DNA of 32,798 nt from Acetobacteraceae bacterium (GCA_023511555.1 JAIMBG010000006.1:1-32798); one strand, 5' to 3'; shown: positions 12,598-32,711, counted from the stretch's first letter. Program-made: numbers and translations. Notes: generated by a model from the letters alone, not told the origin.

Positions 12598-13584
12598 CTA
12601 CCCTCCCAGCCCCAGCCACCACACCACGGGCCCCAGCCACCTCCCGGCCACGAGCCCCACGGCCAGCAGCACCCCCGTGGCGAGGTGCGTGTTGACCGTC
12701 AGCGCGCAGGAGGGGACTATGAGACTGGGGTCGGCGTGGTGCCGCCGGGCCACCGCCACCGCCCGGGCTGCAAGCGGAAGGCTCAGGAGCCCAAGCAGCG
12801 CCGGGACGGGGAGGGTCCGGCTGAGGACCGTCCCCAGGATGGCAAGGTACGGCACGGCCACCAGGACGCAGTAGCCCCAAAAGGCCCGCGCCGTCCCCAG
12901 CCTCACCACCCAGTTGTCCTTGCCCGTCCCCCGGTCGGGCTCCACGTCGGGGAACTGGTTGATGTAGAGCACGGCGGTGATGAGGAACCCCACGGGAAGG
13001 GAAGCCAGCACCGGCGTCCAGGAGAACCGCCCCGCCTGCACGTAGTAGCTCCCCAGGACCAGGAGCGGGCCGAAGGCCAGGCCCACGGCCAGCTCCCCCA
13101 CCCCGCGGTAGGACAGCCTCAGCGGCGGGGCGGTGTAGCACACGCCCAGCGCGGCGCCGGCCAGCATCAGCGCCAGCACCGGCCAGCCCCTGAGCCAGGT
13201 CAGGGCCAGCCCCGCCAGCGCCCCCACCAGGTACGCCGCGCCTGCAGCCAGGGCCACCGTCCGGGGCGAAAGCCGGCCCTCCTGGATCAGGCCCGCGCCG
13301 CCGTTGAACGGGCTGCGGTAACGGTTTATCCAGTCGGTGCCCCCGACGTGGTCGTGAAAGTCGTTGGCCAGGTTGGCGCCGGCGTGCGCCGCCACCGCCC
13401 CGACCAGCGTGAGCGCCAGGCAGCCCCAGGAAAGGCTCCAGCCCTGGTACCAGGCTACCGCCGCCCCCAGGAGCACCGGCACCACGCTGGCCGTAAAGAA
13501 CGGGGCCCGCACCGCCCTGGTCCAGAGCGAAAACCCCTTCATCACTTGCTCGTCCCCCTCCCCCAACGCCTCAGCGTCCGCCAT
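12598..13584 (-). CDS. menA: UbiA/MenA-family prenyltransferase (1,4-dihydroxy-2-naphthoate polyprenyltransferase-like)
   Basis: Polytopic membrane protein with NLANDFHDHVGGTDWIN and YINQFPDVEPDRGTGKDN Asp-rich motifs. An alternative start at 13542 (MKGFSLWTRAVRAPFF) has a better SD. Confidence 0.85.
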   Translation of the reverse strand: MADAEALGEGDEQVMKGFSLWTRAVRAPFFTASVVPVLLGAAVAWYQGWSLSWGCLALTLVGAVAAHAGANLANDFHDHVGGTDWINRYRSPFNGGAGLIQEGRLSPRTVALAAGAAYLVGALAGLALTWLRGWPVLALMLAGAALGVCYTAPPLRLSYRGVGELAVGLAFGPLLVLGSYYVQAGRFSWTPVLASLPVGFLITAVLYINQFPDVEPDRGTGKDNWVVRLGTARAFWGYCVLVAVPYLAILGTVLSRTLPVPALLGLLSLPLAARAVAVARRHHADPSLIVPSCALTVNTHLATGVLLAVGLVAGRWLGPVVWWLGLGG

Positions 13585-14616: not shown

Positions 14617-14619
14617 GGC

Positions 14620-15750
14620 CTACCCTCCCCTCGCCGCGGCCACCGCCGCCCGGGCGGCCTCCTCCATGGTCTGGTAGGCCATGAGTCCGGCCTGCCGGAG
14701 GATCTCCACCCCCTGCTCCTGGTTGGTACCCGCCAGCCTCACCACCAGGGGAACGGGTATCCCCTTCTGCTCCTTCACCTGGACCACGGCCCGCGCCACG
14801 TCGTCGCAGCGGGCGATGCCGCCGAAGATGTTGATGAGTATGGCCCGGGGCCGGGTCCCAAGCAGCACCTCTATCGCCGCGGCCGTGGCCTCGACGCCCG
14901 CCCCGCCGCCCGCGTCGAGGAAGTTGGCCGCCCGGCCCCCGAACCGGGCCAGCACGTCGATGGTGGCCATGGTGATGCCGGCGCCGTTGGCCATGACGGC
15001 GATGTCGCCGTCGAGCTCCACAAACGACAGCCCCAGGGCCTTGACCCGCTGCTCCAGGGGGGTGCCCTCCTCGAACCGGGGCAGCTCGGGGTGCCTCCAC
15101 AGCGCGTCGTCGTCCACCGTCATGCGGGCGTCGACCGCCCAGACCTCACCCTCCGGGGTCACCGCCAGCGGGTTTATCTCCAAGAGCTCGGCGTCGTTCT
15201 CCACGAAAGCGCGGTAGAGCGCCTCGGCCACGCCAGCGACCTTCGCCACCACCCCTGCCGAAAGCCCCCGCCCCTCTGCCGCCTCCGCCATGAGCTTCGG
15301 CCAGAATCCGGGCCTTTGCGCCTCCTCCAGGTTGAGCGGGCGCCTGAAGATCTCCCGGTCGGGCACCTCCTCGATGTCCACGCCGCCCCGGGTGGAGAAG
15401 ATGAGCAGCGGCAGCCGGGCGGAGCCGTCGACCGCCAGCCCCAGGTACAGGTGGTCCCTGATGTCGAGCCTGCGCTCTACCAGGAGGTCCCTCACCTCCA
15501 GGCCCCGTATCCTCTGCCCCAGCAGGTCCAGGCTCAGGCCGTGGGCCTCGTCGGGCGAGGCGGCGAACCTGATGCCGCCCGCCTTGCCCCGGCCCCCGGA
15601 CAGTATCTGGGACTTCACGACCACCGCCCCGCCGAGATCCTCGGCCGCGACCCGGGCCTCATCTGGGGTCTGGACCCGGTGTGCGTCGGGCACCGGGATG
15701 CCATACCGCCTCTTGAGGATGTCCTTTGCCGCCCACTCATAGAGCTTCAC
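14620..15750 (-). CDS. sucC: Succinyl-CoA synthetase beta subunit
   Basis: MKLYEWAAKDILKRRYGIPVP, KSQILSGGRGKAGGIRFA, ELLEINPLAVTPEG, FLDAGGGAGVEATAAAIEVLL, ILINIFGGIARCDDVA. GTG start at 15750. Confidence 0.95.
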   Translation of the reverse strand: MKLYEWAAKDILKRRYGIPVPDAHRVQTPDEARVAAEDLGGAVVVKSQILSGGRGKAGGIRFAASPDEAHGLSLDLLGQRIRGLEVRDLLVERRLDIRDHLYLGLAVDGSARLPLLIFSTRGGVDIEEVPDREIFRRPLNLEEAQRPGFWPKLMAEAAEGRGLSAGVVAKVAGVAEALYRAFVENDAELLEINPLAVTPEGEVWAVDARMTVDDDALWRHPELPRFEEGTPLEQRVKALGLSFVELDGDIAVMANGAGITMATIDVLARFGGRAANFLDAGGGAGVEATAAAIEVLLGTRPRAILINIFGGIARCDDVARAVVQVKEQKGIPVPLVVRLAGTNQEQGVEILRQAGLMAYQTMEEAARAAVAAARGG

Positions 15751-15896
15751 CCCGGCAGCACCCCCAGTCGGTCTTGAGCCACCCGTCCCAGCAACGGGGG
15801 TAGAACGGGGCAGGCTTCACCTGCTGCGTCGGTGCCGGCTCCGTCTCCGTGAAGGCGCTGAGCAACGCCCCCCACGCTCTGCCCCCCTCCCGCCGG

Positions 15897-17141
15897 TCAC
15901 CTCCAGGCCGCCTGAACGCGCTCCACAAGCTTCCTGGTGCGCTCGGCCACGTCCTCGGGGTTCACCTTCAGCCGCGCCACACCGCTGGACATGGCCGCCT
16001 CGGCGACCGCCGCCGCCACCGCGGGGGCCACCCGCCTGTCGAACGGCCTGGGTATCACGTAGTCCGGGGAGCGCTCGGCGTCGCTGATGAGGGAGGCGAT
16101 GGCCCGCGCCCCAGCCAGCTTCATGGCCTCGTTGATGTCCCTGGCCCTGACGTCCAGCGCCCCCCGCAGGACGCCGGGGAAGGCAAGCACGTTGTTGATC
16201 TGGTTGGCGAAGTCGGAGCGGCCGGTGCCCACGACGGCCGCGCCGCCCGCCCTGGCCTCCTCAGGCATGATCTCCGGCACCGGGTTCGCCATGGCAAAGA
16301 CGATGGGGTCGCCGGCCATCGACCTGACCATGTCCCGCGTCACCGCGCCGGCGGCCGACACGCCGATGAACACGTCGGCGCCGCGCATGGCCACGGCCAG
16401 GTCGCCCTTGAGGTTGCGCTTGTTGCCGCGGCGGGCGACGTCCTCCTTGAACGGGTTCATGCCTTCCGGCCGCCCGGCCCAGACGATGCCCCTGGTATCG
16501 CACAGCACGAGCTCTCTCACGCCCGCGTCCAGGAGGAACTTGGCCACGGCGATGCCCGCCGCGCCGGCGCCGTTTATCACCACGTAGATGTCCTCGATGC
16601 GCTTTTGGACGATCCTGAGGGCGTTGAACAGCGCGCCCCCGCACACGATGGCCGTGCCGTGCTGGTCGTCGTGGAATATGGGGATGGAGGTCGTCCGCTT
16701 GAGCTCCTGCTCGATCTCAAAGCAGCGCGGCGCTGAGATGTCCTCCAGGTTCACGCCGCCGATGGTCGGCTCGATGAGCTGTACCAAGCGCACGATCTCC
16801 TTGACGTCCTTGGTGGCCACGCACAGCGGGAAGGCGTCCACGCCGGCGAACGACTTGAACAGCACGCACTTGCCCTCCATCACCGGCAGCCCGGCCTCGG
16901 GCCCGATGTCCCCCAGCCCCAGGACGGCGGTGCCGTCGCTGACCACGGCCACGATGTTGCTGCGCGCCGTGTATTCCCACACGGCGTCCACGTTCTTGTG
17001 GATCTCCTTGCACGGCTCGGCGACGCCCGGCGTATAGGCCAGGCTCAGCTCTTCCTTGTTGCGCACGGGCACCTTGCTGACGAACTCTATCTTGCCGACG
17101 TTCTCCCGATGCAGCTTGAGGGCCTCTTCACGGATATCCAT
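15897..17141 (-). CDS. NAD(P)-dependent malic enzyme
   Basis: ELSLAYTPGVAEPCKEI, VSDGTAVLGLGDIGPEAGLPVMEGKCVLFK, FHDDQHGTAIV, VINGAGAAGIAVAKFLL, FAMANPVPEIMP. Confidence 0.95.
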   Translation of the reverse strand: MDIREEALKLHRENVGKIEFVSKVPVRNKEELSLAYTPGVAEPCKEIHKNVDAVWEYTARSNIVAVVSDGTAVLGLGDIGPEAGLPVMEGKCVLFKSFAGVDAFPLCVATKDVKEIVRLVQLIEPTIGGVNLEDISAPRCFEIEQELKRTTSIPIFHDDQHGTAIVCGGALFNALRIVQKRIEDIYVVINGAGAAGIAVAKFLLDAGVRELVLCDTRGIVWAGRPEGMNPFKEDVARRGNKRNLKGDLAVAMRGADVFIGVSAAGAVTRDMVRSMAGDPIVFAMANPVPEIMPEEARAGGAAVVGTGRSDFANQINNVLAFPGVLRGALDVRARDINEAMKLAGARAIASLISDAERSPDYVIPRPFDRRVAPAVAAAVAEAAMSSGVARLKVNPEDVAERTRKLVERVQAAWR

Positions 17142-17192
17142 CCAGCGAACCTCCTGTCTGCCTCTAAGCCGCGCCGCTGCGCCAGCGAGGCC

Positions 17193-17924
17193 CTAACCCC
17201 GGCCGCGCCCGGTGAGCGCGTGGAGGACCGCGCGACCCTTCAGCTTCTGAATAGCCTGTGTCGGGTTGGTGTTCTTGGGACACGCCTCGGTGCAGTTGAA
17301 GGCGGTGTGGCACCGCCACAGGCCGTTCTCGCTCGCCACCACGGCCAGCCGCTGGGCCGCCCCCCCGTCCCGGGAGTCGGCGATGAACCGCCACGCCTTG
17401 TTGAGGGCCGACGGCCCGAGGAACTGGCCGCCCCCGGTCCACACCGAGGGGCAGGAGGAGTAACATGAGCCGCAAAGGATGCAGCAGGTCGCGTCGTCGA
17501 ACACCGCCCGCTGCCTAGGGCTCTGGATCCGCTCGCCCCCGGGGGCCTGCGAGCGTTCGATGAGGTAGGGCATGACCTTCTCGTAGTTCGCCCAAAACGG
17601 CGACATGTCCACTACGAGGTCCTTGATCACCCGCATGAACGGCAGCGGGCTCACGGTGACGGTGGGCCCGACCAGGTCGAGCTGCGTCTTGCAGGCCAGG
17701 CGATGGGCGCCGTTTATATACATGGCGCAGGCGCCGCAGACCGCGCCGCGGCAGCAGTAGCGGAAGGCCAGGGACCCGTCCAGGCTCTCCAGCACCTCGA
17801 ACATCGCCTCGAGCACCGTCATGCCCGGCCTGGCCTCCAGGGAAAACGTGTCGTAGCGTGGCCGCGAGTCCACGTCCGGGTTGAACCGGAAGACGTTGAG
17901 GGTGACGTTCTTCGTGGCCGCCAT
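17193..17924 (-). CDS. sdhB: Succinate dehydrogenase/fumarate reductase iron-sulfur subunit
   Basis: FRYCCRGAVCGACAMYINGAHRLAC (2Fe-2S), CCILCGSCYSSCPSVW, CHTAFNCTEACPKNTNPTQAI. ATG start at 17924. Confidence 0.95.
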   Translation of the reverse strand: MAATKNVTLNVFRFNPDVDSRPRYDTFSLEARPGMTVLEAMFEVLESLDGSLAFRYCCRGAVCGACAMYINGAHRLACKTQLDLVGPTVTVSPLPFMRVIKDLVVDMSPFWANYEKVMPYLIERSQAPGGERIQSPRQRAVFDDATCCILCGSCYSSCPSVWTGGGQFLGPSALNKAWRFIADSRDGGAAQRLAVVASENGLWRCHTAFNCTEACPKNTNPTQAIQKLKGRAVLHALTGRGRG

Positions 17925-17925
17925 G

Positions 17926-19641
17926 TCAATACCTCCTCGCCTCGGGCTGCCAGCGGGTGATGCGCACCGGCGTGTAATCGAAGCGCGGGCCTTCAGGCGT
18001 CCAGTGGGCCACGGTGTGCTTGAGCCAGTTCCGGTCGTCGCGCTCCTTGAAGTCGGTCCTCGCGTGTGAACCGCGGCTCTCCCGGCGCGCGAGCGCGCCC
18101 AGCGCGATGGTCTCGGCGACCTCAATCATGCCGCCAAGCTCCAGCACGGTGGCAAGCTCCAGGTTGTAGCGGCGCTCGCGCGACCTGACGCAGACGCGCT
18201 GCGCCCGCTGCTTGAGCTCGGCCAGGGTGGCGGCGGCCTCCCGCATCGGGCCCTCGCTGCGGAATATCCCCAGCTTGTCGGACATCGCCACAGCCATCGC
18301 TTTGCGTAGCGCGGCAGGGTCCTCGCCCCCCTCGCCGGCCAGGAGGTTGAACACGCGCCCCTCGGCCCGCAGCATGGCCGCCCTGAGGGCCGCCGCCCGC
18401 GCCCGGCCCCGCCCGTCGCCGTTCTCGAGCCCACCCACGTAGCGGGCCGCCGCGGCCCCTGCCCGCCGGCCGAAGACGATGGTCTCCATCAGCGAGTTCC
18501 CGCCGAGGCGGTTGGCGCCGTGCACCGACACGCAGGCGCACTCCCCGGCGGCGAAGAAGCCGGGGAGCGCCGTGGCGCCATCGACGTCGGTGTCGATGCC
18601 GCCCATGGCGTAGTGCTGGGCCGGCTGCACCGGGATGGGTTTTACGATGGGGTCGATCCCCGCAAAGTCCATGGCGATTTCGCGGATGGAGGGCAGCCGC
18701 TCCAGGATCTTCTTGGCCCCCAGGTGCCGCAGGTCAAGGTGCACGTAAGCGTTTTCGAAACCCCGCCCCTCCAGTACCTCAGTCTCGATGGCCCGCGACA
18801 CGATGTCGCGCGGGGCGAGCTCCATTGCCTTGGGGGCGTATGCAGCCATGAACCTCTCGCCCCGGGAGTTCAGCAGGTAGCCGCCCTCGCCGCGGGCGCC
18901 CTCGGTGATGAGGATGTTGGTGCCCCAGAGCGAGGTGGGATGGAACTGCACGAACTCCATGTCCTTCAGGGGGACCCCGGCCCAGAACGCCACGGCCAGG
19001 GGGCCGCCGGTGTTGATGAGGGCGTTGGTGGAGCGGGCGTAGATGCGCCCAAAGCCCCCGGTGGCGAACACCACGGCCGAGGCGCCAAACGCCTCCAGCG
19101 AGCCGTTGACCAGGTTGAGGCAGACGACGCCGTGGCAGGCGCCGTCGTCCCCCCGCGCCAGCTCGAGCACCTGGCGCTCTTCGTAGACCTTCAGCCCGCG
19201 CTTGACTGTCTGCTCGAAGTAGGTGTGCAGGAGAACGTGTCCAGTGCGGTCGGCGGCGTAGCAGCACCGCGGGTAGCCGGCGCCGCCGAACGGCCGCTGC
19301 GCGATCTTACCCTCGTCGGTGCGGCTGAAAGGACAGCCCCAGTGCTCGGCCTCGTACACCCGCTCCGGCGCCTCGCGCGCCAGGATCTCCGCCGCGTCCT
19401 GGTCGGCCAGGTAATCCGAGCCCTTGACCGTGTCGAAGGCGTGCTTCTCCCAACTGTCGTCCCGGCTGCCCTCAACGTTGCCCAGGGCCGCATTGATGCC
19501 GCCCTGCGCCGCCCCCGAGTGCGACCGCACCGGGTGAACCCGCGAGATGACAGCCACGTCGAGGCCGCTGTCGGCCGCCTCGATGGCCGCGCGGAGCCCG
19601 GCCAGGCCGCCGCCCACCACCAGGACCTGATGGTAGATCAT
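17926..19641 (-). CDS. sdhA: Succinate dehydrogenase/fumarate reductase flavoprotein subunit
   Basis: VLVVGGGLAGLRAAIEA, RSHSGAAQGG (covalent FAD His motif), HPTSLWGTNILITEGARGEGGYLLN, AAGECACVSVHGANRLGGNSLMETIVFGRRAG. Confidence 0.96.
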   Translation of the reverse strand: MIYHQVLVVGGGLAGLRAAIEAADSGLDVAVISRVHPVRSHSGAAQGGINAALGNVEGSRDDSWEKHAFDTVKGSDYLADQDAAEILAREAPERVYEAEHWGCPFSRTDEGKIAQRPFGGAGYPRCCYAADRTGHVLLHTYFEQTVKRGLKVYEERQVLELARGDDGACHGVVCLNLVNGSLEAFGASAVVFATGGFGRIYARSTNALINTGGPLAVAFWAGVPLKDMEFVQFHPTSLWGTNILITEGARGEGGYLLNSRGERFMAAYAPKAMELAPRDIVSRAIETEVLEGRGFENAYVHLDLRHLGAKKILERLPSIREIAMDFAGIDPIVKPIPVQPAQHYAMGGIDTDVDGATALPGFFAAGECACVSVHGANRLGGNSLMETIVFGRRAGAAAARYVGGLENGDGRGRARAAALRAAMLRAEGRVFNLLAGEGGEDPAALRKAMAVAMSDKLGIFRSEGPMREAAATLAELKQRAQRVCVRSRERRYNLELATVLELGGMIEVAETIALGALARRESRGSHARTDFKERDDRNWLKHTVAHWTPEGPRFDYTPVRITRWQPEARRY

Positions 19642-19654
19642 GGCCCACACCCCC

Positions 19655-20002
19655 TCACGCGGCGATGAACGGCATCAGCCCGAAGACGCCCAGGACGAGC
19701 CAGGCCAGGCCGATGACGCTCAGCCCCACGGTAAGCCACAGAGCGCCGCGGCGGCGCACGCCGAAGTCGAGCAGGACGTTGCGCAGGCCGTTCAGGCCGT
19801 GGAACAGGACCAGAGCCAGGAGGCTGAAGTCTACCGCCATGTACAGGACCGTCTTGACCCGTACCGTCACGCCGGCGAACGCGATCTCGGCGCCCGGGTC
19901 GGAGAAGTGCGTGGCCCAGAGATGCAAGAACAGCGCCACGACCAGGGCGGCCGCGGTCGCCCGCTGCCAGAACCAGGGCCAGAGCCCTTTCACGCCCGCC
20001 AC
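19655..20002 (-). CDS. sdhD: Succinate dehydrogenase membrane anchor subunit
   Basis: Three TM helices, FLHLWATHFSDP and LFHGLNGLRNVLLDFG; sits between the cytochrome subunit and sdhA. Confidence 0.85.
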   Translation of the reverse strand: MAGVKGLWPWFWQRATAAALVVALFLHLWATHFSDPGAEIAFAGVTVRVKTVLYMAVDFSLLALVLFHGLNGLRNVLLDFGVRRRGALWLTVGLSVIGLAWLVLGVFGLMPFIAA

Positions 20003-20156
20003 CCCCCTAAGCCGTGATCACCGGCAGGACTATCCAGAAGCAGAACGCGACGCCCGCCGCCGACAGGGCGAAGATGATCCAAAACACCAGCTTCTGCTGC
20101 TTGACCAGCAGGCCGAGGTCAAACAACAGGAGGCGGAGGCCGTTCAGGCCGTGGAA
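19785..20156. repeat. 20-nt exact direct repeat shared by sdhD and sdhC
   Basis: AGGCCGTTCAGGCCGTGGAA at 19785-19804 and again at 20137-20156, encoding the shared FHGLNGL motif. Confidence 0.8.
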
Positions 20157-20438
20157 TATGACCGCCGCCAGGAGCCCCACGTCAAGGACCACCCAGAACT
20201 TCGTGTGGAGGAGGGCCATCACGCCGTCGAAGCTCGCCGCCCCGAGCATGGCCGAGCTGATCACCGGGATGTGCAAGAGAACGTAGAACACGAGGGCCAG
20301 TCCCGTTATCCGGTGCAGAAGGAACGCGTACATGCCGACGCCGGCGTTGGCCGGGTGCAGCGGGCTTACGCGCCTGACCCGCGCCCCCGCGCCGCCGGCC
20401 CCCAGCTCCCCGGGGCCGGCGCAAGCCCTGGTCTCCAT
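20007..20438 (-). CDS. sdhC: Succinate dehydrogenase cytochrome b subunit
   Basis: YAFLLHRITGLALVFYVLLHIPVI and IFHGLNGLRLLLFDLG, with His residues consistent with heme ligation. Confidence 0.88.
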   Translation of the reverse strand: METRACAGPGELGAGGAGARVRRVSPLHPANAGVGMYAFLLHRITGLALVFYVLLHIPVISSAMLGAASFDGVMALLHTKFWVVLDVGLLAAVIFHGLNGLRLLLFDLGLLVKQQKLVFWIIFALSAAGVAFCFWIVLPVITA

Positions 20439-20454
20439 CGCTCTATCCCCCCGC

Positions 20455-21012
20455 TCAGGCCGGCCCGGCCTGCGAGTACTGCCTCAGCCCCTCCTCATAC
20501 AGGTCGCCGCCTCTCGCATCGTTGATGACCACGACGGGGAACCGCTCCACCCTGAGGCGCCGGATGGCCTCCGGGCCAAGATCCTCGTAGGCCACCAGCT
20601 CACAGCCCACGATGCACTTGGTTATCAGCGCGGCGGCGCCCCCCACGGCGGCGAAGTAGACGGCGTTGTACTTCTTGAGGGCCTCACGCACCGCCGCCGA
20701 CCGCGAACCCTTGCCGATCATGCCCTTGAGGCCGCGCTCCAGCAGCGCCGGCGTATACGGGTCCATGCGCCCGCTGGTGGTCGGCCCCGCAGAGCCGATG
20801 ACGCGCCCCGGCTTGGCCGGCGACGGGCCGACGTAGTAGATGATCTGGCCCGCGAGGTCGAACGGCAGCCTCTGGCCCGCCTCCAGCGCCTTGACCAGGC
20901 GCTCGTGCGCGGCGTCGCGGGCGGTGTAGAGGTGGCCGGTGATGAGGACGCGGTCACCGGCGGAGAGCGCGGCAACCGCCCGATCGTCCAGCGGCGTCTT
21001 AAGTTCCACCAT
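20455..21012 (-). CDS. fumB: Fumarate hydratase class I, beta (C-terminal) subunit
   Basis: LTGHLYTARDAAHERL-like (VLITGHLYTARDAAHERL), IIYYVGPSPAKPGRVIGSAGPTTSGRMDPYTP, GKGSRSAAVREALKKYNAVYFAAVGGAAAL. Confidence 0.94.
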   Translation of the reverse strand: MVELKTPLDDRAVAALSAGDRVLITGHLYTARDAAHERLVKALEAGQRLPFDLAGQIIYYVGPSPAKPGRVIGSAGPTTSGRMDPYTPALLERGLKGMIGKGSRSAAVREALKKYNAVYFAAVGGAAALITKCIVGCELVAYEDLGPEAIRRLRVERFPVVVINDARGGDLYEEGLRQYSQAGPA

Positions 21013-21072
21013 GAGCCCCTCCCTCCTCGCACCAGACGAGGCGGCGCGCGCCGCCTCAGTCGCGCTCGATCC

Positions 21073-21915
21073 TCAGACGACCGCCTCCGCGTGCCGGTGG
21101 GCATGGCAGTTAACGTTCACCGCCACGGGCAGCGACGCGATGTGGCAGGCGTATGTGAGGACGCTCACCCACAGGGCCGTGACCCGCCCGCCGAAGCCCT
21201 GGGGACCGATGCCCAGCCGGTTTATCTCCGTCAGAAGGTCGCGCTCCAGGGCGGCGACGGCCGGGTCGGGGTGGTGCTGGCCGAGGGGCCGCAGGAGCGC
21301 CTCCTTGGCCAGGAGCGCTGCCTTCTCGAACGTCCCGCCAAGCCCCACGCCGACCACCACCGGCGGGCAGGGATTCGGCCCCGCCCGGCGCACCACGTCG
21401 ACGACGAAGGCCTTGACGCCGTCGCGGCCATCGGCCGGCGTGAGCATCCTGAGCGCCGACATGTTCTCGGCGCCGCCGCCCTTGGGCGCCACGACGACGC
21501 GCACCCTGTCACCGGGGACGATGCGGGTGTGGATGATGGCCGGCGTGTTGTCGCCGGTGTTCTTGCGGTCCAGGGGGTCCTTCACCGCCGACTTGCGCAA
21601 GAAGCCCCCCACGTACCCGCGCCGCACCCCCTCATTCACCGCCGCCTCGATGTCACCCCCGACCAGGCGGACCTCCTGGCCGACCTCAAGGAACACCACT
21701 GCCAGCCCCGTGTCCTGGCACATCGGCTCGCCTTCTTCACGCGCGATGCGCGCGTTCTCGAGAAGCTGCCCGATGACCTCGCGCCCCGCCGGCGACTCCT
21801 CAGAATCAAGCGCCGCCCGCAACGCCTGGAGGACGTCCTCTCCCAGCACCTCGTTCGCGGAGCGGCACAGCTTGTCGACGGCGGCGGTTACCAGCGAGAC
21901 ATCTACCTCTCTCAC
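21073..21915 (-). CDS. fumA: Fumarate hydratase class I, alpha (N-terminal) subunit
   Basis: GEPMCQDTGLAVVFLEVGQEV, NTGDNTPAIIHTRIVPGD, VAPKGGGAENMSALRML. GTG start at 21915 preceded by a strong SD (GGAAGGAGGGG). Confidence 0.94.
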   Translation of the reverse strand: MREVDVSLVTAAVDKLCRSANEVLGEDVLQALRAALDSEESPAGREVIGQLLENARIAREEGEPMCQDTGLAVVFLEVGQEVRLVGGDIEAAVNEGVRRGYVGGFLRKSAVKDPLDRKNTGDNTPAIIHTRIVPGDRVRVVVAPKGGGAENMSALRMLTPADGRDGVKAFVVDVVRRAGPNPCPPVVVGVGLGGTFEKAALLAKEALLRPLGQHHPDPAVAALERDLLTEINRLGIGPQGFGGRVTALWVSVLTYACHIASLPVAVNVNCHAHRHAEAVV

Positions 21916-22006
21916 GGCGCACCCCTCCTTCCGACCGGCGGCGCGGCCCAGGCCACACCCCATGCCTCCGGGCATCTCGGCCCTCTGGGCGCCCGCCACC
22001 CCCGGC

Positions 22007-22933
22007 CTAGGCCGGCAGCGCCGCCTGGGGCCGGGGGAGCAGACCTGCCCGCTCCACTATGGTGGGTACGATGCTCTCCCAGGCTACGGCCATGATGTGG
22101 ACGCCGCGCACGCCCTCGACCTTGCGGAGCTCCCGGATGAGCTCCACGCAGATGTTCACGCCCTCCTCCTCCGGCTTTTCTGCCGCCTTCATGCGGTCGA
22201 GCAGGGCCCTGGGTATGCTCATCCCCGGGACGGTGCTCATGTACTTCATGGCCCCAAACGACTTGGCCGGGATCACCCCCGCCAGGATGGCCACCCTCTT
22301 GTGCAGCCCGGCCTCCCGCACCGCCTCCATGAAGCGGTGAAACCGCTCCAGGTCGAAGATGCCCTGGGTCTGGATGAAGTCGGCGCCGGCCGCCACCTTC
22401 TTGGCCAGCCTCACCGCCCTGAACTCCAGGGGGTCGGCGAAGGGGTTCTCGGCGGCCCCGATGAAGATGCGGGGCTCCACCTTCATCTCCTCGCCGCACT
22501 GGAACCTCTTTTCGTCCCTCATGCCCTTGAGCATCGAGATGAGCTGGATGGAGTCAAGGTCGAAGACGTTCCTGGCGCCGGGGTGGTTGCCGAACGACTG
22601 GTGGTCCCCGGTGAGGCAGAGGATGTTCTTTATGCCCAGGCTGGCCGCCCCCAGCACGTCGCTCTGGATGGCGATGCGGTTTCTGTCCCGGCAGGTGATC
22701 TGCATCACCGGCTCGGCGCCCTCGGCCAGCACGTGGAGCGCGCCGGCCAGGCTGCACAGCCTCACTATGGCCGTCTGATTGTCAGTGATGTTGATGGCGT
22801 CGACGAAGTCCTTGAGCAGGGCCGCGTGGGAGCGTATGCCCTTGCTCGACGCCCCCTTGGGCGGCCCCACCTCCGCCGTCACCACGAACTCGCCCCTCTC
22901 CAGGAGCGCCTCCAGCCTGCCGCCTGCCTTCAT
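22007..22933 (-). CDS. metF: Methylenetetrahydrofolate reductase
   Basis: EFVVTAEVGPPKGASSKGIRSHAALLKDFVDAINITDNQTA, ILCLTGDHQSFGNHPGARNVFDLDSIQL, FIQTQGIFDLERFHRFM, GVIPAKSFGAMKYMSTVPGMSIP. ATGA overlap with metV. Confidence 0.95.
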   Translation of the reverse strand: MKAGGRLEALLERGEFVVTAEVGPPKGASSKGIRSHAALLKDFVDAINITDNQTAIVRLCSLAGALHVLAEGAEPVMQITCRDRNRIAIQSDVLGAASLGIKNILCLTGDHQSFGNHPGARNVFDLDSIQLISMLKGMRDEKRFQCGEEMKVEPRIFIGAAENPFADPLEFRAVRLAKKVAAGADFIQTQGIFDLERFHRFMEAVREAGLHKRVAILAGVIPAKSFGAMKYMSTVPGMSIPRALLDRMKAAEKPEEEGVNICVELIRELRKVEGVRGVHIMAVAWESIVPTIVERAGLLPRPQAALPA

Positions 22934-23598
22934 AGCCGGGCATCCTCCCTTACCACCTGTCTAGGCCCGCCGTCGCGGGCGGTCGACCAGTCCTTGGGCG
23001 GGAGCACCGGGGTCAAAAGCTCCAGCCGGCCCAGGCCCTTGAGCCGGTCGTAGATGAGCTGCCAGGCGCACCTGGTCTCCCGCTTTATCTCGCAGTTCCC
23101 GCCGTGCGACCCCCCGCAGGGGCCGTTGAGCAGGCTCTTGGAGCAGCGGATGACGGGGCAGATGCCGCCGGTGAGGTGAAGCACACAGTCGCCGCACAGC
23201 CCGCACCTCTCCTCCCACACCCCCGCCTCCCTGACGCCGCCGGCGAACTTGGTGTCCAGCGCCGGCACCACCCAGCGCTGGGCGAACCTCTCCGCCAGGA
23301 ACTGCACCCCCACCCCGCAGCCCATGGAGAGGATCACCTCGGCTGCCTCGGCCTTCTTGTCCAGGGGGACGAGGTACTCGGGCTCGCACTGGCGCTGGAC
23401 CGTCTCCGTCTCGACGGTGACCGGCCGCCCCTCCTTGCCCCTCATGAGCCGCAGCGCGGAGGCCATGACCTCCACTTCCTTCTCCCCGCCGGCCATGCAC
23501 ACGGTGACGCACTCGCCGCACCCCACCACCAGGATGCGCTCGTACGGCGCCACCAGCGAGGCCACCGCTTCCATGGGCTTGCGCTCGGCCACGATCAC
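22930..23598 (-). CDS. metV: MetV, MetF-associated Cys-rich zinc/iron-sulfur protein
   Basis: VVGCGECVTVCMAGGEKEVEVMASALRL, CGLCGDCVLHLTGGICPVIRCSKSLLNGPCGGSHGGNCEI; directly upstream of metF as in acetogens. Confidence 0.92.
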   Translation of the reverse strand: MIVAERKPMEAVASLVAPYERILVVGCGECVTVCMAGGEKEVEVMASALRLMRGKEGRPVTVETETVQRQCEPEYLVPLDKKAEAAEVILSMGCGVGVQFLAERFAQRWVVPALDTKFAGGVREAGVWEERCGLCGDCVLHLTGGICPVIRCSKSLLNGPCGGSHGGNCEIKRETRCAWQLIYDRLKGLGRLELLTPVLPPKDWSTARDGGPRQVVREDARL

Positions 23599-24074
23599 GG
23601 AAGGTCACCCTCTCTCCCAGGATTGGTCCCCGCGGCCTCCCCCCGGGCGGAAAGCCGCTCCCGGATGGGGCTGGGGCCCAGCCGGCGGACCCGTTCCGTC
23701 ATTTCCCGGGCTATCTCGGCGAACCGGGGCCCCATGGAGCCGGAGAGGTTGAACATCTCCAGCCTGTCCCCGCCCAGCCCGATCTCGTCAAGCAGGGCCT
23801 TGACCCTCGCCACCCGTTTTTTGGCCCTCAGGTTGCCGCGCTGGAAGTGGCAGTCCCCCTCCAGGCAGCCGGCGACGTAGACGCCGTCGGCCCCCTCCTC
23901 GAAGGCGCGCAGCAGCAGGACGGGGTCGATCTTCCCCGAGCAGGGCAGCTCCACCACCCGCACGGCGGCCGGGTACTCCAGCCGCATGGAGCCGGCCACG
24001 TCCGCCGCCGCATAGGCGCAGTAGTAGCAACTGAACGCCACGATCTTGGGCTCGAACCCTTCCGCCACCCCCAT
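23595..24074 (-). CDS. mvhD: Hydrogenase iron-sulfur subunit MvhD-like protein
   Basis: PKIVAFSCYYCAYAAADVAGSMRLEYPAAVRVVELPCSGKIDPVLLLRAFEEGADGVYVAGCLEGDCHFQRGNLRAKKRV. ATG at 24074 shares its A with the hdrA stop (TGATG). Confidence 0.93.
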   Translation of the reverse strand: MGVAEGFEPKIVAFSCYYCAYAAADVAGSMRLEYPAAVRVVELPCSGKIDPVLLLRAFEEGADGVYVAGCLEGDCHFQRGNLRAKKRVARVKALLDEIGLGGDRLEMFNLSGSMGPRFAEIAREMTERVRRLGPSPIRERLSARGEAAGTNPGREGDLP

Positions 24075-27000
24075 CACCTCCGTCCCGCCAGGGCATAGAG
24101 CCCGCCCAGCTTGGCCATCACCTGGCCGTCCTCGTAGAACCCGACCTGGATGGCCCCGGCCGGGCACTCGCCGGCGCATGTGCCGCAGCCATGGCACTGG
24201 ACGGCCTCTATCACCGCCACCCCCTCCCGGCTTATCCGGGGGACGCCGTAGGGGCAGACCCGCACGCAGGTCAGGCAGGCGGCGCACTTGTCTTCGTCCA
24301 CGGCGGCGACCACCCCGCCCGCCCAGAGCTCGGGCCGGCTCAGGATGAGCATGGCCCGGGCCGCCGCGCCCTTGGCCTGGTATATGGCCTCCTCGATGAA
24401 CTTGGGCCCGTGTGCGCTGCCGCAGAGGAACAGCCCCTGCGATGCAAAGTCCATAGGCCCCAGCTTGATGTGGGTCTCGAGGAAGAACCCGTCCTCGTTG
24501 ACCGGCACCTTGAGCAGGCTGGCCAGCTCCGCCGTCCCCGGGGGGCTGACGGTGGCCGCGGCCAGCACCAGGAGATCGGGCTTGAGCAGGAGCTCCAGCC
24601 CCCCGGCGCGATCGGCCACCTCGACCTCCAGCCGGCCCTGCCGCTCCTCCACCCGCGGGGGCCTGTCCTCGGGGAAGGGCACGAACAGCACCCCGGCCTC
24701 GCGGGCCCGCCGGTACTGCGCCTCCATGAAGCCGTAGGTGCGCATGTCGCGGTAGAGGACGTAGACCCGGAGCCCGCTATCGCGCTCCTTGAGCAGGAGC
24801 GCGTTCTTGACCGTCTCGGCGCAGCAGGTGCGGCTGCAGTACTGCCGGCCCTCCTCCCGCGAGCCCACGCACTGGATGAACGCCACCTCGCGGATGCCGT
24901 CGAGGGCCGGCGATCCCTCATGCAGCATGGCCTCGAGCTCCAGGCCGGTGACCACCCGACGGCTCTGGCCGTAGAGGTACCGGTCGGGCACCAGCTCCTG
25001 GGCCCCGGTGGCCACCACCACTGCGCCGTGCTCCAGCCTCTCCAGGCGGCGCGGCCCGGGGCCGGGGCCGGCTCCCACCGAGACCTGGCTTATGAAGTGG
25101 CCGGGGCGGCCGGTGAGCTCCTCCAGCCTGGCCTCAAGGAGGCAGGTGATGAGCGGATGGGAGCTCACCCGCCCCACCAGGCGGCGCAGCAGCGCCCGCA
25201 CGTCGCCGCCGTAAAGCGTACGGTGGATGCGGCGCAGGTTGCCGCCCAGCTCGGACTCCTTCTCCACCAGGTAGACGGGCACGCCCTGGTCGGCGAGCGC
25301 CAGCGCCGCCGTCATGCCGGCCACGCCGCCCCCCAGGACCAGGGCCTTCTGCACCACGGGCGCGGGGTGCAGCGAGAGCGGCCGGTGCTCCCTCACCTTA
25401 GCCACCGCCATGCGGACCAGGTCTATCGCCTTGTTAGTGGCCCCTTGGGGGTCGGTCTTGTGCACCCAGGAGCACTGGTCGCGGATGTTGGCCATCTCAA
25501 GGAGGAACTGGTTCAGACCCGCCTCGCGAAGCGTCTCGCGGAACAGGGCCTGGTGGGTGCGGATGGTACAGGACGCCACCACCACGCGATTCAAGCCCTT
25601 TTTGGCGATGACCTGGCGGATGTCCTTGAGGCTGTCCTGGGAGCAACTGTAGAGCATCGCCTGGGCGTGCTCCACCCCGGGCAGAGATTTGGCGAACTCC
25701 ACCACCGCCGGCACGTCGACCACGGACGCAATGTTGATGCCGCAGCGGCAGACGAACACCCCCACTCGCGGCGGCTCGGCCGACACGTCGCGCTCCCGCG
25801 GGTACTCCTTCACCCTGACCATGCTCCAGCGGCCGGGCGCAAGGAGCTCCGCTGCCTCCGCCGCCGCGGCGCTGGCGGTCATGATGGTCTCGGGGATGTC
25901 CTGGGGGCCGCGGAAGGCGCCGGCCACGAACACCCCCGGCCGGGTCGCGGCCACGGGGCTGAACTCGTCGACGCGGGCGAAACCGTAGGGGTTGAGTTCG
26001 AACCCCAGCGCCTGCGAAAGCGCGGGCGCACCCCGGGGGGGCCTCACCCCCGTGGCCAGCACCACCATGTCGAACTCCTCGTCCTTTACCGTCCCGTCGT
26101 CGACGTAGCGGACCACCAGGTTCCTGGTGGCGGGGTCCTCCTTGACGGAGGAGATCATCGCCCGGACGTAGCGCACCCCGTAGGACCTCTTGGCCGCCTC
26201 CACATAGCGCTCAAAGCCCTTGCCGAAGGCCCTCATGTCGAGGTAGAACACGGTGGACTCCACCTGGGGGTCGTGCTCCTTGGCCACCACCGCCTCCTTG
26301 GTGGTGTAGAGACAGCACACCGAGGAGCAGTATTCCGCCCCGCAGGAGAGGTCACGGGAGCCTATGCACTGCAGAAACGCGATGCGCCGGGGCAGGGCGC
26401 GGTCGGACGGCCGCACCAGGTGGCCGCGGGTGGGCCCGGTGGAGCAGAGTAACCGTTCGAACTCGTACGCCGTGACCACGTTGGGGTAGACCCCGTACCC
26501 GTACTCCCCCTCGCGCACCGCAGGGTGAAGGTCAAAGCCCGGGGCGAGGATGACCGCCCCCACCTCCACCTCCCTCTCCTCCGGAGCGTCACTGTGCCGG
26601 ACCGCGTTCCTCTGGCAGGCCTGCTCGCACCGCAGGCACTCGCTGCACGCCCCGCACGCCAGGCACCGCGCGGCCTCGGAGACCGCGGCCTCCCGGTCGA
26701 GCCCCAGCGAGACCTCGTCGAAGCCCGAGAGCGCCCCTTTGGGCTCCAGCCGCCCCGGCCGGGCGCGCGCCCGGGGGACGGGCCGGGCCCACTCCGGCGC
26801 GCTAAGGCGCTCGGGGGCGGGAGCCTCCCTGCCCTCCCGGAGATCGCCGCCGGAGAGGTACCTGTCGATCGACTCCGCCGCCTCGTGGCCCGAGACGATG
26901 GCCTCCAGCACCGAAGACCCGTGGCCGGTGATGTCGCCACAGGCGAACACCCCGGGCGCGGACGTCTCCTTCGTCAGCCTGTCGGCCACGACCAGGCCGC

Positions 27001-28576
27001 CCGGGGTGGTGCGGATGGAACCGTCGTCGGGCAGGAATCCCGGCTCGGGGGCCCGGCCCACGCAGAGGATGACGGTGTCCACCTGGAGCCGCTCCTCCGT
27101 CCCCTCCTGGTAGCGGGGGTCGAACCGCCCCGTCTCATCGAAGACCTGAACGCACCGCCAGAGCTCCACGCCCGTGACGCTGCCGTCCTTGTGGAGCACG
27201 CGCTTCAGCCCCGTCGAGGGGTGGAGCTTCACCCCCTCCTCCAGGGCCTGCTCCACCTCCCAGGGGCGGGCCGGCAGAGTGTCCCGGCCCTCCACGCAGG
27301 CCACGTGGACCTCCCGGGCCCCCAGCCTCAGCGCGGTCCCGGCCGCGCCCATGGCCACCGAGCCCCCGCCCACCACCAGCACCCTTTGCCCCACGGGCGG
27401 ACGGCCGCCCAGGGCGGCCTCCCTCAGCCACCCCAGGCCCTCCACCACGCCCTGGGCGTCCACGCCCGGCACGGGGAGCGGGCAGCCCCTCTGCAGCCCC
27501 ACGGCCAGCAGCACGGCGCCGTACTCCGACCTCAGCCGGTCCCAGCCGATGTCCCGGCCCACGCGCACCCCGGTGCGGATCTCCACGCCCTCGCCCTCTA
27601 TCGCGGCTATCTCCCGCTCCACCACGGACTCGGGCAGCCGGTAGCGGGGGATGCCGCACCTCAGCATCCCGCCCGGTCTGGGCAGGGCCTCATAGACGGT
27701 GACGCCGAAGCCCCGGCGGGTAAGGTCCAGGGCCGCCGTAAGCCCCGCCGGACCGCCGCCCACCACCGCCACCCGCTGGCCCCGGGGCTCAGCCGGGGGC
27801 GGAAGGGACAGCCAGGGCCGCCGCTTGCCCCGGGCCTCCCGGGCGCGGGCCCAGTACTCCTCCCAGCCGTAGTCTGCGGCCGCCCGCTCCAGGGCAGAGA
27901 TCGCCAGAGGCTCGTCGACGTCCTTGCGGTTGCACTCGCTCTCACACGGATGGTGGCAGATGCGGCCGCAGATGCCGGGGAAGGGCAGGGTGCGGCGGAC
28001 CACGTCGACCGCCTGGGCAAACCTGCCCTGGGCAACCAGGGCCACGAACCCCTGGACGTTGCAGCCCGCAGGGCAGCCCGAGCGGCAGGGCGGACGCCCC
28101 CGCTTCTCCACCAGGTAGGCGTTGGGCACCGCCTGGGGAAACATCTTGTGGATGGCCTTCTGGGTGCCTCGGCCCAGGTTGAAGGCGTCGGGCACCTCCA
28201 CCGGGCAGACGCCCTCGCACCCTCCGCAGGCGGTGCACTCCTTTACGTCCACGTACCGCGGCTGGCTCCGGAGCCGGGCCTTAAAACGCCCCGGCTCCCC
28301 CTCCAGGCCCACCACCGTGGTCAGCGCGCTGATCTCGATGTTGGGGTGGTTCTGGCAGTCGGTCATCCGGGGCCCCAGCATGCACATGGCGCAGTCGTTG
28401 GTGGGGAAGGTCTTGTCCAGCCGGGCCATCTTCCCCCCGATGGACGCCTCCTCAGTCACCAGGTGCACGAAGAACCCCGAGCCCGCGAGGTCCAGCGCGG
28501 CCTGCATCCCGCCGATGCCGCCGCCCACCACCAGCACCGAGCCCAGCGGCCCTGCTCCGTCATTGCGCTGGGGCAT
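24074..28576 (-). CDS. hdrA: Giant fused HdrA: HdrA split by GltD/NfnB-like NAD(P)H oxidoreductase module, plus second HdrA
   Basis: 1500 aa. HdrA start (VLVVGGGIGGMQAALDL...FPTNDCAMCMLGPRMTDC...CTACGGCEGVCPVEVPD); GltD-like block about aa 163-655 (CRSGCPAGCNVQGFVALVAQGRF...ICGRICHHPCESECNR; VAVVGGGPAGLTAALDL; VLVVGGGSVAMGAAGTALRLGA; GVFACGDITGHGSSVLEAI); HdrA resumes (CIGSRDLSCGAEYCSSVCCLYTTKEA); second HdrA from about aa 935 (VGVFVCRCGINIASVVDV...; ALVLGGGVAGMTAALALA; C-terminal CAACLTCVRVCPYGVP / CHGCGTCAGECPAGAI). Confidence 0.95.
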   Translation of the reverse strand: MPQRNDGAGPLGSVLVVGGGIGGMQAALDLAGSGFFVHLVTEEASIGGKMARLDKTFPTNDCAMCMLGPRMTDCQNHPNIEISALTTVVGLEGEPGRFKARLRSQPRYVDVKECTACGGCEGVCPVEVPDAFNLGRGTQKAIHKMFPQAVPNAYLVEKRGRPPCRSGCPAGCNVQGFVALVAQGRFAQAVDVVRRTLPFPGICGRICHHPCESECNRKDVDEPLAISALERAAADYGWEEYWARAREARGKRRPWLSLPPPAEPRGQRVAVVGGGPAGLTAALDLTRRGFGVTVYEALPRPGGMLRCGIPRYRLPESVVEREIAAIEGEGVEIRTGVRVGRDIGWDRLRSEYGAVLLAVGLQRGCPLPVPGVDAQGVVEGLGWLREAALGGRPPVGQRVLVVGGGSVAMGAAGTALRLGAREVHVACVEGRDTLPARPWEVEQALEEGVKLHPSTGLKRVLHKDGSVTGVELWRCVQVFDETGRFDPRYQEGTEERLQVDTVILCVGRAPEPGFLPDDGSIRTTPGGLVVADRLTKETSAPGVFACGDITGHGSSVLEAIVSGHEAAESIDRYLSGGDLREGREAPAPERLSAPEWARPVPRARARPGRLEPKGALSGFDEVSLGLDREAAVSEAARCLACGACSECLRCEQACQRNAVRHSDAPEEREVEVGAVILAPGFDLHPAVREGEYGYGVYPNVVTAYEFERLLCSTGPTRGHLVRPSDRALPRRIAFLQCIGSRDLSCGAEYCSSVCCLYTTKEAVVAKEHDPQVESTVFYLDMRAFGKGFERYVEAAKRSYGVRYVRAMISSVKEDPATRNLVVRYVDDGTVKDEEFDMVVLATGVRPPRGAPALSQALGFELNPYGFARVDEFSPVAATRPGVFVAGAFRGPQDIPETIMTASAAAAEAAELLAPGRWSMVRVKEYPRERDVSAEPPRVGVFVCRCGINIASVVDVPAVVEFAKSLPGVEHAQAMLYSCSQDSLKDIRQVIAKKGLNRVVVASCTIRTHQALFRETLREAGLNQFLLEMANIRDQCSWVHKTDPQGATNKAIDLVRMAVAKVREHRPLSLHPAPVVQKALVLGGGVAGMTAALALADQGVPVYLVEKESELGGNLRRIHRTLYGGDVRALLRRLVGRVSSHPLITCLLEARLEELTGRPGHFISQVSVGAGPGPGPRRLERLEHGAVVVATGAQELVPDRYLYGQSRRVVTGLELEAMLHEGSPALDGIREVAFIQCVGSREEGRQYCSRTCCAETVKNALLLKERDSGLRVYVLYRDMRTYGFMEAQYRRAREAGVLFVPFPEDRPPRVEERQGRLEVEVADRAGGLELLLKPDLLVLAAATVSPPGTAELASLLKVPVNEDGFFLETHIKLGPMDFASQGLFLCGSAHGPKFIEEAIYQAKGAAARAMLILSRPELWAGGVVAAVDEDKCAACLTCVRVCPYGVPRISREGVAVIEAVQCHGCGTCAGECPAGAIQVGFYEDGQVMAKLGGLYALAGRR

Positions 28577-28595: not shown

Positions 28596-29453
28596 CTAGC
28601 CCAGGCCCAGCCGCGAAAGCAGCGGCCGGGGGCTCACCAGGTGGCGCCTGAACCATGAGCCCCTCCCGCCCAGGTCCAGCGCCAGACCCAGGAGCTCGGT
28701 GAAATAGAAGACCGGCAGCCTCCCTTCCGCGCCCCGGCTCTCCAGGTTGGTCTGGCAGAGGGGGCAGGCGGTGCTGAGCGCCTCAGCCCCGGCCCGCCGG
28801 GCCTCAACCCGGAGCCTGGAGCAGAGCTCCCCCACCAGGGCGGGGCGGGAGAACGCCAGGCCGGCGCCGCAGCAGTCGGTGCGGTAGGACCACTCCACCG
28901 GCTCGGCCCCTGCCGCCGACAGCAGCCTCTCCATGGAGCGCGGCTGCTCGGGGTCTTCGAACGCCGCCGCCCGGGGGGGCCGCACCAGCAGGCAGCCGTA
29001 GTACGCCGCCACCTTGAGGCCCTTGAGCGGCCTTCTTACCGCCCGCTTCAGCCCCGCCACCGCATCGGGGACAGAAAGCACCTCCAGGGGATGGCGGGCC
29101 CGGACCCTGCCCGTAAAGGGCCTGCCGGTGATGCGCCTCTGCTCCTCCTCCGCCACAAGCGCCCGGCCCTCCCCCGCCTCCAGCGCCGCCGCGGCCTGCC
29201 TTAAGCCGGAGTAGCAGGCGGCGCAGGGCGCCAGCAGGTCCCGCCCCTGGGCCTCGGCCAGGGCCAGGTTCCTCATGGGCAGGGCCAGGGCCAGAAAGTC
29301 GCTGGTGGAGTGGGCCGATGTGGCACCGCAGCAATTCCAGCCCTTGAGCTCCTCCACCTCCAGCCCCAGCCGCCCCAGCACCGCCCGCGTGGAGAGGTCG
29401 TACTCCCTCCCCGTGGAGTGGAGCGAGCAGCCGGGGTAGTAGCCGTACTTCAC
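28596..29453 (-). CDS. hdrB: Heterodisulfide reductase subunit B-like (CCG domain)
   Basis: KYGYYPGCSLHSTGREYDLS, GWNCCGATSAHST, APCAACYSGL, YYGCLLVRPPRA, TDCCGAGLAFS, ACPLCQTNL. GTG start at 29453 in GTGA overlap with hdrC. Confidence 0.94.
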   Translation of the reverse strand: MKYGYYPGCSLHSTGREYDLSTRAVLGRLGLEVEELKGWNCCGATSAHSTSDFLALALPMRNLALAEAQGRDLLAPCAACYSGLRQAAAALEAGEGRALVAEEEQRRITGRPFTGRVRARHPLEVLSVPDAVAGLKRAVRRPLKGLKVAAYYGCLLVRPPRAAAFEDPEQPRSMERLLSAAGAEPVEWSYRTDCCGAGLAFSRPALVGELCSRLRVEARRAGAEALSTACPLCQTNLESRGAEGRLPVFYFTELLGLALDLGGRGSWFRRHLVSPRPLLSRLGLG

Positions 29454-29998
29454 TGGAGCTCCCTCGCTCTCTGGAAGATGCGGGCGACCTCGCGCGCCCC
29501 GGGGGCGCGGGACGGCAGGAGGCGGAGCTTGCCCCGCGCCATCATCCTGAGGCCCAGGCCCAGGTCCTGGGTGAGGTTCCGGGTGAGCAGCTTCTGGAGC
29601 AGGATGAGGCCCACCTCGTAGGCCCGGCCCAGAAGCTCCACCATGAGCAGGAAGGAGAAGTGGAAGTCCTTCACCGCCTTCTCCGCCGGCCGCCGCTCCC
29701 TCAGCGCCATGACCCGGAGCGCGTCCGTCACCCTGGCCCCGTCGATCTCGTTGGGGCATCGCGCCTGGCAGGTCTTGCAGCCGGTGCAGAGCCAAATGGC
29801 GCGGGCGCTCAGCGCCTCGTCCTTGAGCCCGAGCTGCACCAGGCGGACCACCTGGTGGATCTTGAGGTCAGCCGCAAAGGACAGCGGGCAGCCGGCCGAG
29901 CACTTCTGGCACTGGTAGCACCGCGCCACCGGCTGGCCGGAGTCCCGCTCCACCGCCCGGGGAAAGGTGACGGCAGCGGCGGAAGGATTGACCGCCAT
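29450..29998 (-). CDS. hdrC: Heterodisulfide reductase subunit C-like
   Basis: CYQCQKCSAGCPLSF and CTGCKTCQARCPNEI 4Fe-4S motifs; small protein directly upstream of hdrB. Confidence 0.93.
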   Translation of the reverse strand: MAVNPSAAAVTFPRAVERDSGQPVARCYQCQKCSAGCPLSFAADLKIHQVVRLVQLGLKDEALSARAIWLCTGCKTCQARCPNEIDGARVTDALRVMALRERRPAEKAVKDFHFSFLLMVELLGRAYEVGLILLQKLLTRNLTQDLGLGLRMMARGKLRLLPSRAPGAREVARIFQRARELQ

Positions 29999-30049
29999 GA
30001 TCCCTCGCCTCCCCATCTTGCCTACCGATGCCGGCTGATGCCGCCCGCC

Positions 30050-31875
<1,826 letters not shown>

Positions 31876-31933: not shown

Positions 31934-32689
31934 CTACAGCGCCACCCGCTTCACCAGGTCTCTCACCGCCTCCAGCGCCGGAGAGCCGGCGGCAAGGGAG
32001 GAAAGCGGCCGGCCCTCGAGGTCGAGCGCCGCCACCTGGGGGTCATTCGGCACCACCGCCCCCACCTCCAGCCCCAGCCGGGCGGCCGCTCCGCAGAGCT
32101 CCTCCCCGTCCTCCGAAGAGGCCCGGTTCAGCACCAGCAGCCGCGACTTCACCCGGGTGCCCTCCAGCGACCCGGCGAGCCGCCAGATGCGTTGGGCGGC
32201 GGTGAGCCCCCTCATCGTAGGGTCGCTGGTGACGAAAAGCACGTCTACGTCCCGGGCGATACGGCGGGAGAGGTGCTCCAGGCCCGCTTCGTTGTCCAGC
32301 ACCAGGTACCGGTAGTTCCGGCTCAGCGTCTCCATATGCTTACGCAACAGGTCATTGGGGTAGCAGTAGCAGCCCGGGCCCTCGGGGCCCCCCATGGTGA
32401 GCAGGTCGACCCCCCTGGCCTCGGACAGCGCCTGGCTCAGCCTGAACTCCACGAACGCCTCCCGGCTCATGCCCGGCGGCACCGCCCGGGGCTCCTTGGT
32501 CTGGGCCAGGATCTCGGCCAGCGTCCCCTCCACCCTCACCCCCAGGGCCTCCCCCAGGTTGGCGTTCGGGTCGGCGTCCACCGCCAGGACGGGGCCGGCC
32601 CCCGCATCGAGAAGGCAGCGCACGGTGAGCGCGGCCAGCGTGGTCTTGCCGGTGCCGCCCTTGCCGGCCACGGCTATCTGAAAGGACAT
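31934..32689 (-). CDS. cooC: CooC-type nickel-insertion/CODH-ACS maturation ATPase
   Basis: [24 protein letters not shown] (deviant Walker A), [55 protein letters not shown]. Confidence 0.93.
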
Positions 32690-32711
32690 TCTATCCCCCA
32701 TCAACCGTGCC

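Follow-up and report, generated by a model that had tools for sequence, protein, structure and literature searches.

Gene Content of the Locus

The window, i.e., the whole stretch of 32,798 nucleotides from an Acetobacteraceae bacterium that was analysed here, carries the gene hdrA of the kind belonging to the type IV methylene-THF reductases (MTHFR), located at 24074..28576 on the minus strand, with the stop codon inside these coordinates, and encoding a protein of 1500 aa and 161.4 kDa. The original prediction gave the same coordinates, which are correct, but the gene lies on the minus strand, the plus-strand translation of 24074-28576 being unrelated. The genes hdrC-hdrB-hdrA-mvhD-metV-metF are contiguous on the minus strand and include, besides hdrA, hdrC (29450..30016) with a 4Fe-4S dicluster, hdrB (28596..29453) with two CCG stretches, whose Cys motifs were read from the translation, mvhD/FlpD (23595..24074; 159 aa), whose ATG overlaps the hdrA stop codon, metV (22930..23598; PF12225) and metF (22007..22933; PF02219). 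This contiguity bears out the predicted link of HdrA to MetF, MetV, MvhD and HdrBC. The same strand encodes the methyl-THF:corrinoid/Fe-S protein methyltransferase acsE (30050..30841), the CODH/ACS delta subunit acsD (30901..31875), and a CooC-like MinD/NifH-family ATPase (31934..32704), for which the name cooC was taken from the position beside acsD, while acsB is found at another site of the genome. The six subunits of the complex total 284 kDa as computed from the sequence; the Moorella complex was reportedly put at 320 kDa by Mock in 2014.

Downstream of metF, on the same strand, the region 12598-21999 contains menA, a sucCD-like CoA ligase, malic enzyme, a succinate dehydrogenase/fumarate reductase operon, and fumarase; thus, a quinone-linked C4 pathway adjoins the Wood-Ljungdahl genes. 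The gene menA (12598..13584, minus strand, outside the hdrA operon) encodes 1,4-dihydroxy-2-naphthoate prenyltransferase (TIGR00751, 123.9 bits at a cut-off of 102.15), and menaquinone is probably synthesised by the organism. The sulfite reductase model dsrA found no match in the genome, which is 88.6% complete, and, therefore, sulfate reduction is not indicated.

Domain Architecture of HdrA

The 1500-aa chain begins with an HdrA half and closes with a second one; a GltD/NfnB-like module for FAD and NAD(P)H splits the first half within its inserted ferredoxin domain. Pfam assigns Fer4_20 to residues 161-240, Pyr_redox_2 to 268-560 (E 1.9e-54), and Fer4 from residue 1426, and in the phmmer search against the PDB chains, residues 163-576 matched NfnB 4ylf (E 2.8e-64), so that both the insertion within HdrA and its GltD/NfnB homology, as originally predicted, were recovered by the domain search. 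The methanogen HdrA 5odc, taken as the reference, is aligned by phmmer in four pieces, with residues 15-158, 644-863, 934-1106 and 1353-1494 of the window HdrA corresponding to 147-290, 293-514, 2-174 and 506-650 of 5odc, respectively. The alignment break between 5odc residues 290 and 293 shows that the inserted ferredoxin domain is split by the insert between its two 4Fe-4S motifs.

Residues 1-160 (28097..28576; this and the following segments are all on the minus strand) represent the N-terminal part of the half-1 TrxR/FAD domain, with Cys65 as the equivalent of Cys197, and the first 4Fe-4S motif of the inserted ferredoxin domain (C114, C117, C120, C124). The GltD/NfnB-like module follows at residues 161-600 (26777..28096), with C164, C168, C203, C207, C211 and C215, an FAD Rossmann fold, and an NAD(P)H Rossmann fold bearing the acidic loop ACVE (E429). 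The span of aa 163-655 given earlier for this module thus stands as regards homology, but the module itself extends from 161 to about 600, and residues 601-654 are a linker and the resumed ferredoxin motif. The segment 601-930 (25787..26776) comprises this linker, the second 4Fe-4S motif (C638-C654), and the rest of the half-1 TrxR domain, with E707/K760 and C737/C750/C754/C755. The HdrA N-terminal domain (C943, C945, C978, C1003) occupies residues 931-1070 (25367..25786), the half-2 TrxR/FAD domain, with E1215/K1257 and C1236/C1247/C1251/C1252 and devoid of the inserted ferredoxin domain, residues 1071-1415 (24332..25366), and the C-terminal 2x[4Fe-4S] ferredoxin domain residues 1416-1500 (24077..24331). 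Three FAD-type domains are accordingly present, in agreement with the three flavin sites and the NAD(P)H module claimed earlier. The AlphaFold2 model, which covers residues 1-1200 only, is a confident one, with a mean pLDDT of 87.4 and a pTM of 0.81, and its closest PDB structures are Nfn-ABC, StnC, NfnB and HdrA.

In half 1, Cys65 is found together with the FAD domain and the inserted ferredoxin domain, while neither the N-terminal domain nor the C-terminal ferredoxin domain of HdrA is present. The inserted and the C-terminal ferredoxin domains thus occur once each, in different halves. The halves are complementary, with the N-terminal domain in half 2 and Cys65, which would complete the cluster of this domain, in half 1. 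Judged from the sequence, neither half is complete, and both together make up one full set of HdrA domains; the second complete HdrA of the original prediction is not upheld, since half 2 has no inserted ferredoxin domain and one domain set is split over both halves. The Fe-S ligands of both halves are all present, and Cys65 aligns at the sequence level with Cys197 of 5odc. Among the 101 full-length homologues, the Fe-S cysteines are nearly all invariant (C943, C945, C978 and C1003 in 101/101), C172 and C203 being variable, and a few ORFs that are truncated or start elsewhere leave gaps in the alignment, at C62/C65 or in the C-terminal ferredoxin domain. In the methanogen dimer, Cys197 comes from the partner HdrA, and the Moorella HdrA was described as two fused HdrA with complementary loss (Chadwick et al., PMC9012536). 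With such complementary halves, a single chain could act as its own HdrA dimer, and the window chain may be read as a self-contained one.

Homologues and Their Gene Neighbourhoods

The search in 101 genomes, namely that of the window and 100 others from its class, revealed more than 25 single ORFs spanning nearly the whole HdrA query. Full-length single-ORF homologues were found in all at about 100 loci of 13 named phyla, as counted for the full-length set by the NCBI ranks of the record titles. The best 80 loci in named genomes belong to Thermodesulfobacteriota, Myxococcota, Bacillota, Chloroflexota, Atribacterota, Spirochaetota, Gemmatimonadota, and others. In Moorella, the single-ORF homologue, mostly of 1487 aa, is found in 11/11 genomes, with 57-58% identity over residues 3-1495.

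An assembly join of the two halves, which had been named earlier as a possible source of the fusion, was rejected. The source genome is fragmented (243 contigs), and two-gene split forms are found in genomes of the same class, but the same single ORF recurs at full length in about 100 loci across many genomes, including the long contigs of well-assembled ones, so that an assembly artefact or a joining of separate genes has a next to negligible probability. In the split form (L043, L044, L045), an HdrA-GltD of about 900 aa is followed by an HdrA of about 575 aa, the genes abutting or overlapping by one base; it is likely the unfused state of the same architecture.

The partner genes vary considerably. 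In one group of loci (L028-L034, L037-L039, L101, L102, L120, L127), the long HdrA is clustered with two QmoA/QmoB-like flavoproteins, HdrC, MvhD, and often MetVF; these Qmo-type clusters are mostly devoid of HdrB, i.e., a different partner set surrounds the same HdrA. Full-length long HdrA genes with no HdrBC, MvhD or MetVF genes nearby also occur in the same-class genomes (L020-L027, L036, L041, L042), and for three of these orphans (L020, L021, L024) no partners were apparent in the simple ORF listing. Single in-frame TGA codons were noticed within the HdrA-family matches G013:C21, G083:C30, G098:C246 and Moorella G101:C46, which may possibly encode selenocysteine, as in some known HdrA, or reflect an overrun of the match.

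Relation to the Moorella Complex and Other Known Systems

The gene order cooC-acsD-acsE-hdrC-hdrB-hdrA-mvhD-metV-metF is identical in the window and in Moorella stamsii (L048; HdrA of 1488 aa), and the identity of the window HdrA to the Moorella HdrA is at the ortholog level. For M. thermoacetica, Kremp, Roth and Mueller described in 2022 an HdrA of 162.8 kDa, with aa 922-1487 as a C-terminal HdrA and a GltD-interrupted N-terminal half, predicted to hold eight 4Fe-4S clusters, three FAD and one NAD(P)H site, and with the bifurcation residues E696/K750 and E1204/K1246 (PMC9430772). The corresponding Glu/Lys pairs align in both TrxR domains of the window HdrA (E707/K760, E1215/K1257), so the bifurcating-flavin residues, as checked in each half, are present, and both pairs are kept in all the Moorella copies as well, whereas the half-2 equivalents of E356/K409 are lost in many relatives of the 101-sequence alignment. 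The HdrA of the M. thermoacetica complex MetFV-HdrABC-MvhD (Moth_1191-1196), with 1487 aa, is similar in length to the 1500-aa window HdrA and shares with it the domain order, the three FAD sites and the single NAD(P)H site, the E/K pairs, and the gene order; unlike it, the window HdrA has Glu instead of Lys at position 230, Cys at 172, and the changes D410G, N406S and R413G in the NAD(P)H Rossmann fold. Since the layout, including the three FADs, has been published (PMC9430772), which is one of the findings that the original prediction had itself named as refuting, the possible novelty of the HdrA-GltD-HdrA order is lost, and the window HdrA is an ortholog from a lineage that has not been characterised.

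Accumulated from the sequence, these features make it most probable (about 0.78) that the protein is the HdrA of a Moorella-type (type IV, Hdr-type) MTHFR complex MetFV-HdrABC-MvhD of the Wood-Ljungdahl pathway, which leads from CO2 to acetate, and that NADH would enter the complex and the HdrA flavins would couple a path to MetF with a path through HdrCB. It is a real, well-preserved ortholog of a known, only partly understood enzyme, of low novelty and of moderate value as comparative material.

The nearest other systems share only parts of this architecture. The type III HdrA of ANME-1/Bathyarchaeota (HdrA9-11; PMC9012536, PMC12054007) has the GltD/NfnB insertion at the same site in the ferredoxin domain, but, the insert aside, it has been described as type I-like and not with MetFV; in the window chain there is, in addition, a second HdrA half. 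HdrL of Desulfobacterium autotrophicum, likened here by its description, is an HdrA/glutamate-synthase fusion followed by mvhD, for which the use of NADH was proposed; HdrL1 is, however, tied to dsr genes, and two of the three HdrL are selenoproteins (PMC2702500). The best structural and sequence match of the insert is to StnC and the Nfn-ABC large subunits (8oh5_C, 9bov_A, 9n5u_A), where, as in the window HdrA, the element 'EV..EA.RCL.CG' stands after the module, although these proteins run on into other domains (NuoG/FdhF-like in StnC) and not into HdrA. NfnB has the same Fer4_20 and Pyr_redox_2 fold with FAD and NAD(P)H sites, but carries the element before the module; this canonical EA.RCLQC element is absent at that place from the alignment of the window HdrA, and no gene for the NfnA partner lies beside hdrA, its neighbours being hdrBC, mvhD and metVF. 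All four domain types and the cluster ligands of 5odc (HdrABC-MvhADG) are also found in the window HdrA, but its single chain distributes them between two halves that differ from each other, with the GltD module breaking the sequence.

The NAD(P)H Loop and the Cluster Ligand of the Inserted Module

In the NADPH-linked Stn and Nfn-ABC and in most relatives, strand 2 of the NAD(P)H Rossmann fold is followed by a YRR loop, and in the window HdrA by ACVE, an acidic loop that fits NADH. The Moorella HdrA is said, following Mock in 2014, to be specific for NAD, with which the acidic residue would agree. An acidic loop [C/A/S/M]xE is present in 17/20 non-redundant rows with MetVF and HdrB, including every Moorella copy and all 11 rows of the window clade, vs 16/69 of the others (Fisher p 8.6e-7 on raw counts, with only 3 phylogenetically independent pairs, so that the link between loop and gene context is not established beyond shared descent); it is found in 0/14 Qmo-type and 0/10 orphan rows.

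The FAD-proximal cluster of the module is ligated by Lys170 in StnC, a non-bifurcating GltD module, and by Glu in the bifurcating NfnB (PMC10482914). The aligned position is Lys in 88/101 sequences, His in 10, Glu in 2 and Arg in 1, and the usual Lys points to an entry flavin without bifurcation in the family, from which the window HdrA, with Glu230, would be an exception. This NfnB-type Glu, where nearly all relatives have the Stn-type Lys, has suggested that the GltD-module FAD of the window HdrA might itself bifurcate, three bifurcating flavins then coupling NADH, methylene-THF, a quinone-type partner and a low-potential acceptor, which seems very improbable. Loop and ligand offer two cheap comparative tests, for NADH vs NADPH and for a wire-like vs a bifurcating entry flavin, respectively.

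Four substitutions, all at conserved positions of the GltD-like module, are unique or nearly unique to the window HdrA: K230E (27887-27889) and N406S, D410G and R413G (residues 406-413, 27338-27361). Asp410 is invariant in the other sequences of the 101, the window alone having Gly, with Ser406 and Gly413 close by, and these changes could alter NADH binding. Moorella keeps K, N, D and R at these positions, and a decaying or altered NADH module may accordingly be suspected, but the chain is under ordinary constraint (6 deviations at 244 conserved columns vs a median of 3), the Cys ligands and the FAD motif are intact, and a few base errors are possible in a fragmented assembly, which makes decay distinctly doubtful.

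Electron Path and the Third Partner

NADH is oxidised in the Moorella complex at HdrA (PMC8760232, PMC5861303), and methylene-THF is reduced by MetF (PMC5861303, PMC8760232), so that the entry of NADH into the type IV methylene-THF reductase is well supported. The heterologous Moorella HdrA was reported with 2 FAD (PMC5861303), vs the 3 predicted sites (PMC9430772). By homology and the Moorella biochemistry, two electrons from NADH would pass to the GltD-module FAD and, as the domain order suggests, would reach the HdrA flavins one at a time by way of the module clusters and then the ferredoxin domain that the module interrupts; given the E/K residues, either or both of these flavins may be the coupling site of two paths. 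The methanogen HdrA-MvhD and the gene order suggest that one path would leave by the C-terminal ferredoxin domain, continue through MvhD to MetV/MetF and end at methylene-THF. The other may use HdrC/HdrB as its exit towards a third partner, for which a quinone or thiol system is likelier than free ferredoxin, and the potential of this partner may decide whether the complex bifurcates or confurcates. For Moorella, a confurcating mode with reduced menaquinone and NADH was proposed (PMC13040438, PMC13391211).

The original prediction assumed that NAD(P)H electrons are bifurcated to methylene-THF and ferredoxin, with up to three flavins involved. The HdrA and NfnB families do reduce ferredoxin, the cysteines of the ferredoxin domain are intact, and the bifurcation E/K pairs are kept in both halves. 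However, the only ferredoxin-type insert domain of the window HdrA, where ferredoxin docks in the methanogen HdrA, carries the GltD module, for which blocking of the ferredoxin site and feeding of NADH instead were proposed in the archaeal GltD-inserted HdrA (PMC12054007), half 2 lacks such a domain, and the involvement of ferredoxin could not be shown for the Moorella complex (PMC8760232, PMC13391211), which argues against ferredoxin as the third reactant and makes this scheme quite unlikely. A quinone-type partner through HdrCB would fit better, with circumstantial support from half 2 without the ferredoxin-docking domain, the two CCG stretches of HdrB, and menA on the contig.

It is also conceivable, although unlikely, that the long HdrA does not bifurcate and acts as a plain wire, leading to MetF either from NADH or from quinone via HdrCB, as the S. 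ovata system functions with no GltD module and its MTHFR seems to be coupled to the membrane chain (PMC9430772), and as the half-2 E/K equivalents are lost in many relatives. Such a wire should, however, give NADH-dependent methylene-THF reduction, which was not seen in the Moorella preparation without a third partner (PMC8760232); moreover, it would not need two HdrA flavins, and both E/K pairs are retained in the window and all the Moorella proteins. Coupling of the MetF path and the HdrCB path by the HdrA flavins is the preferred reading.

In many long-HdrA homologues, hdrBC are not nearby, and, therefore, HdrCB is not always the exit path. The third partner of the type IV methylene-THF reductase matters for acetogen energetics, and the window locus contributes an ortholog from a lineage not yet in culture, whose contig also bears a gene of menaquinone synthesis. 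The same genome contains a second hdrC-hdrB-hdrA set with a GltD insert (L046, G000:C50, 1947-4079), whose HdrA has its own N-terminal domain and an NADPH-type YRR loop, and ends at the contig end.
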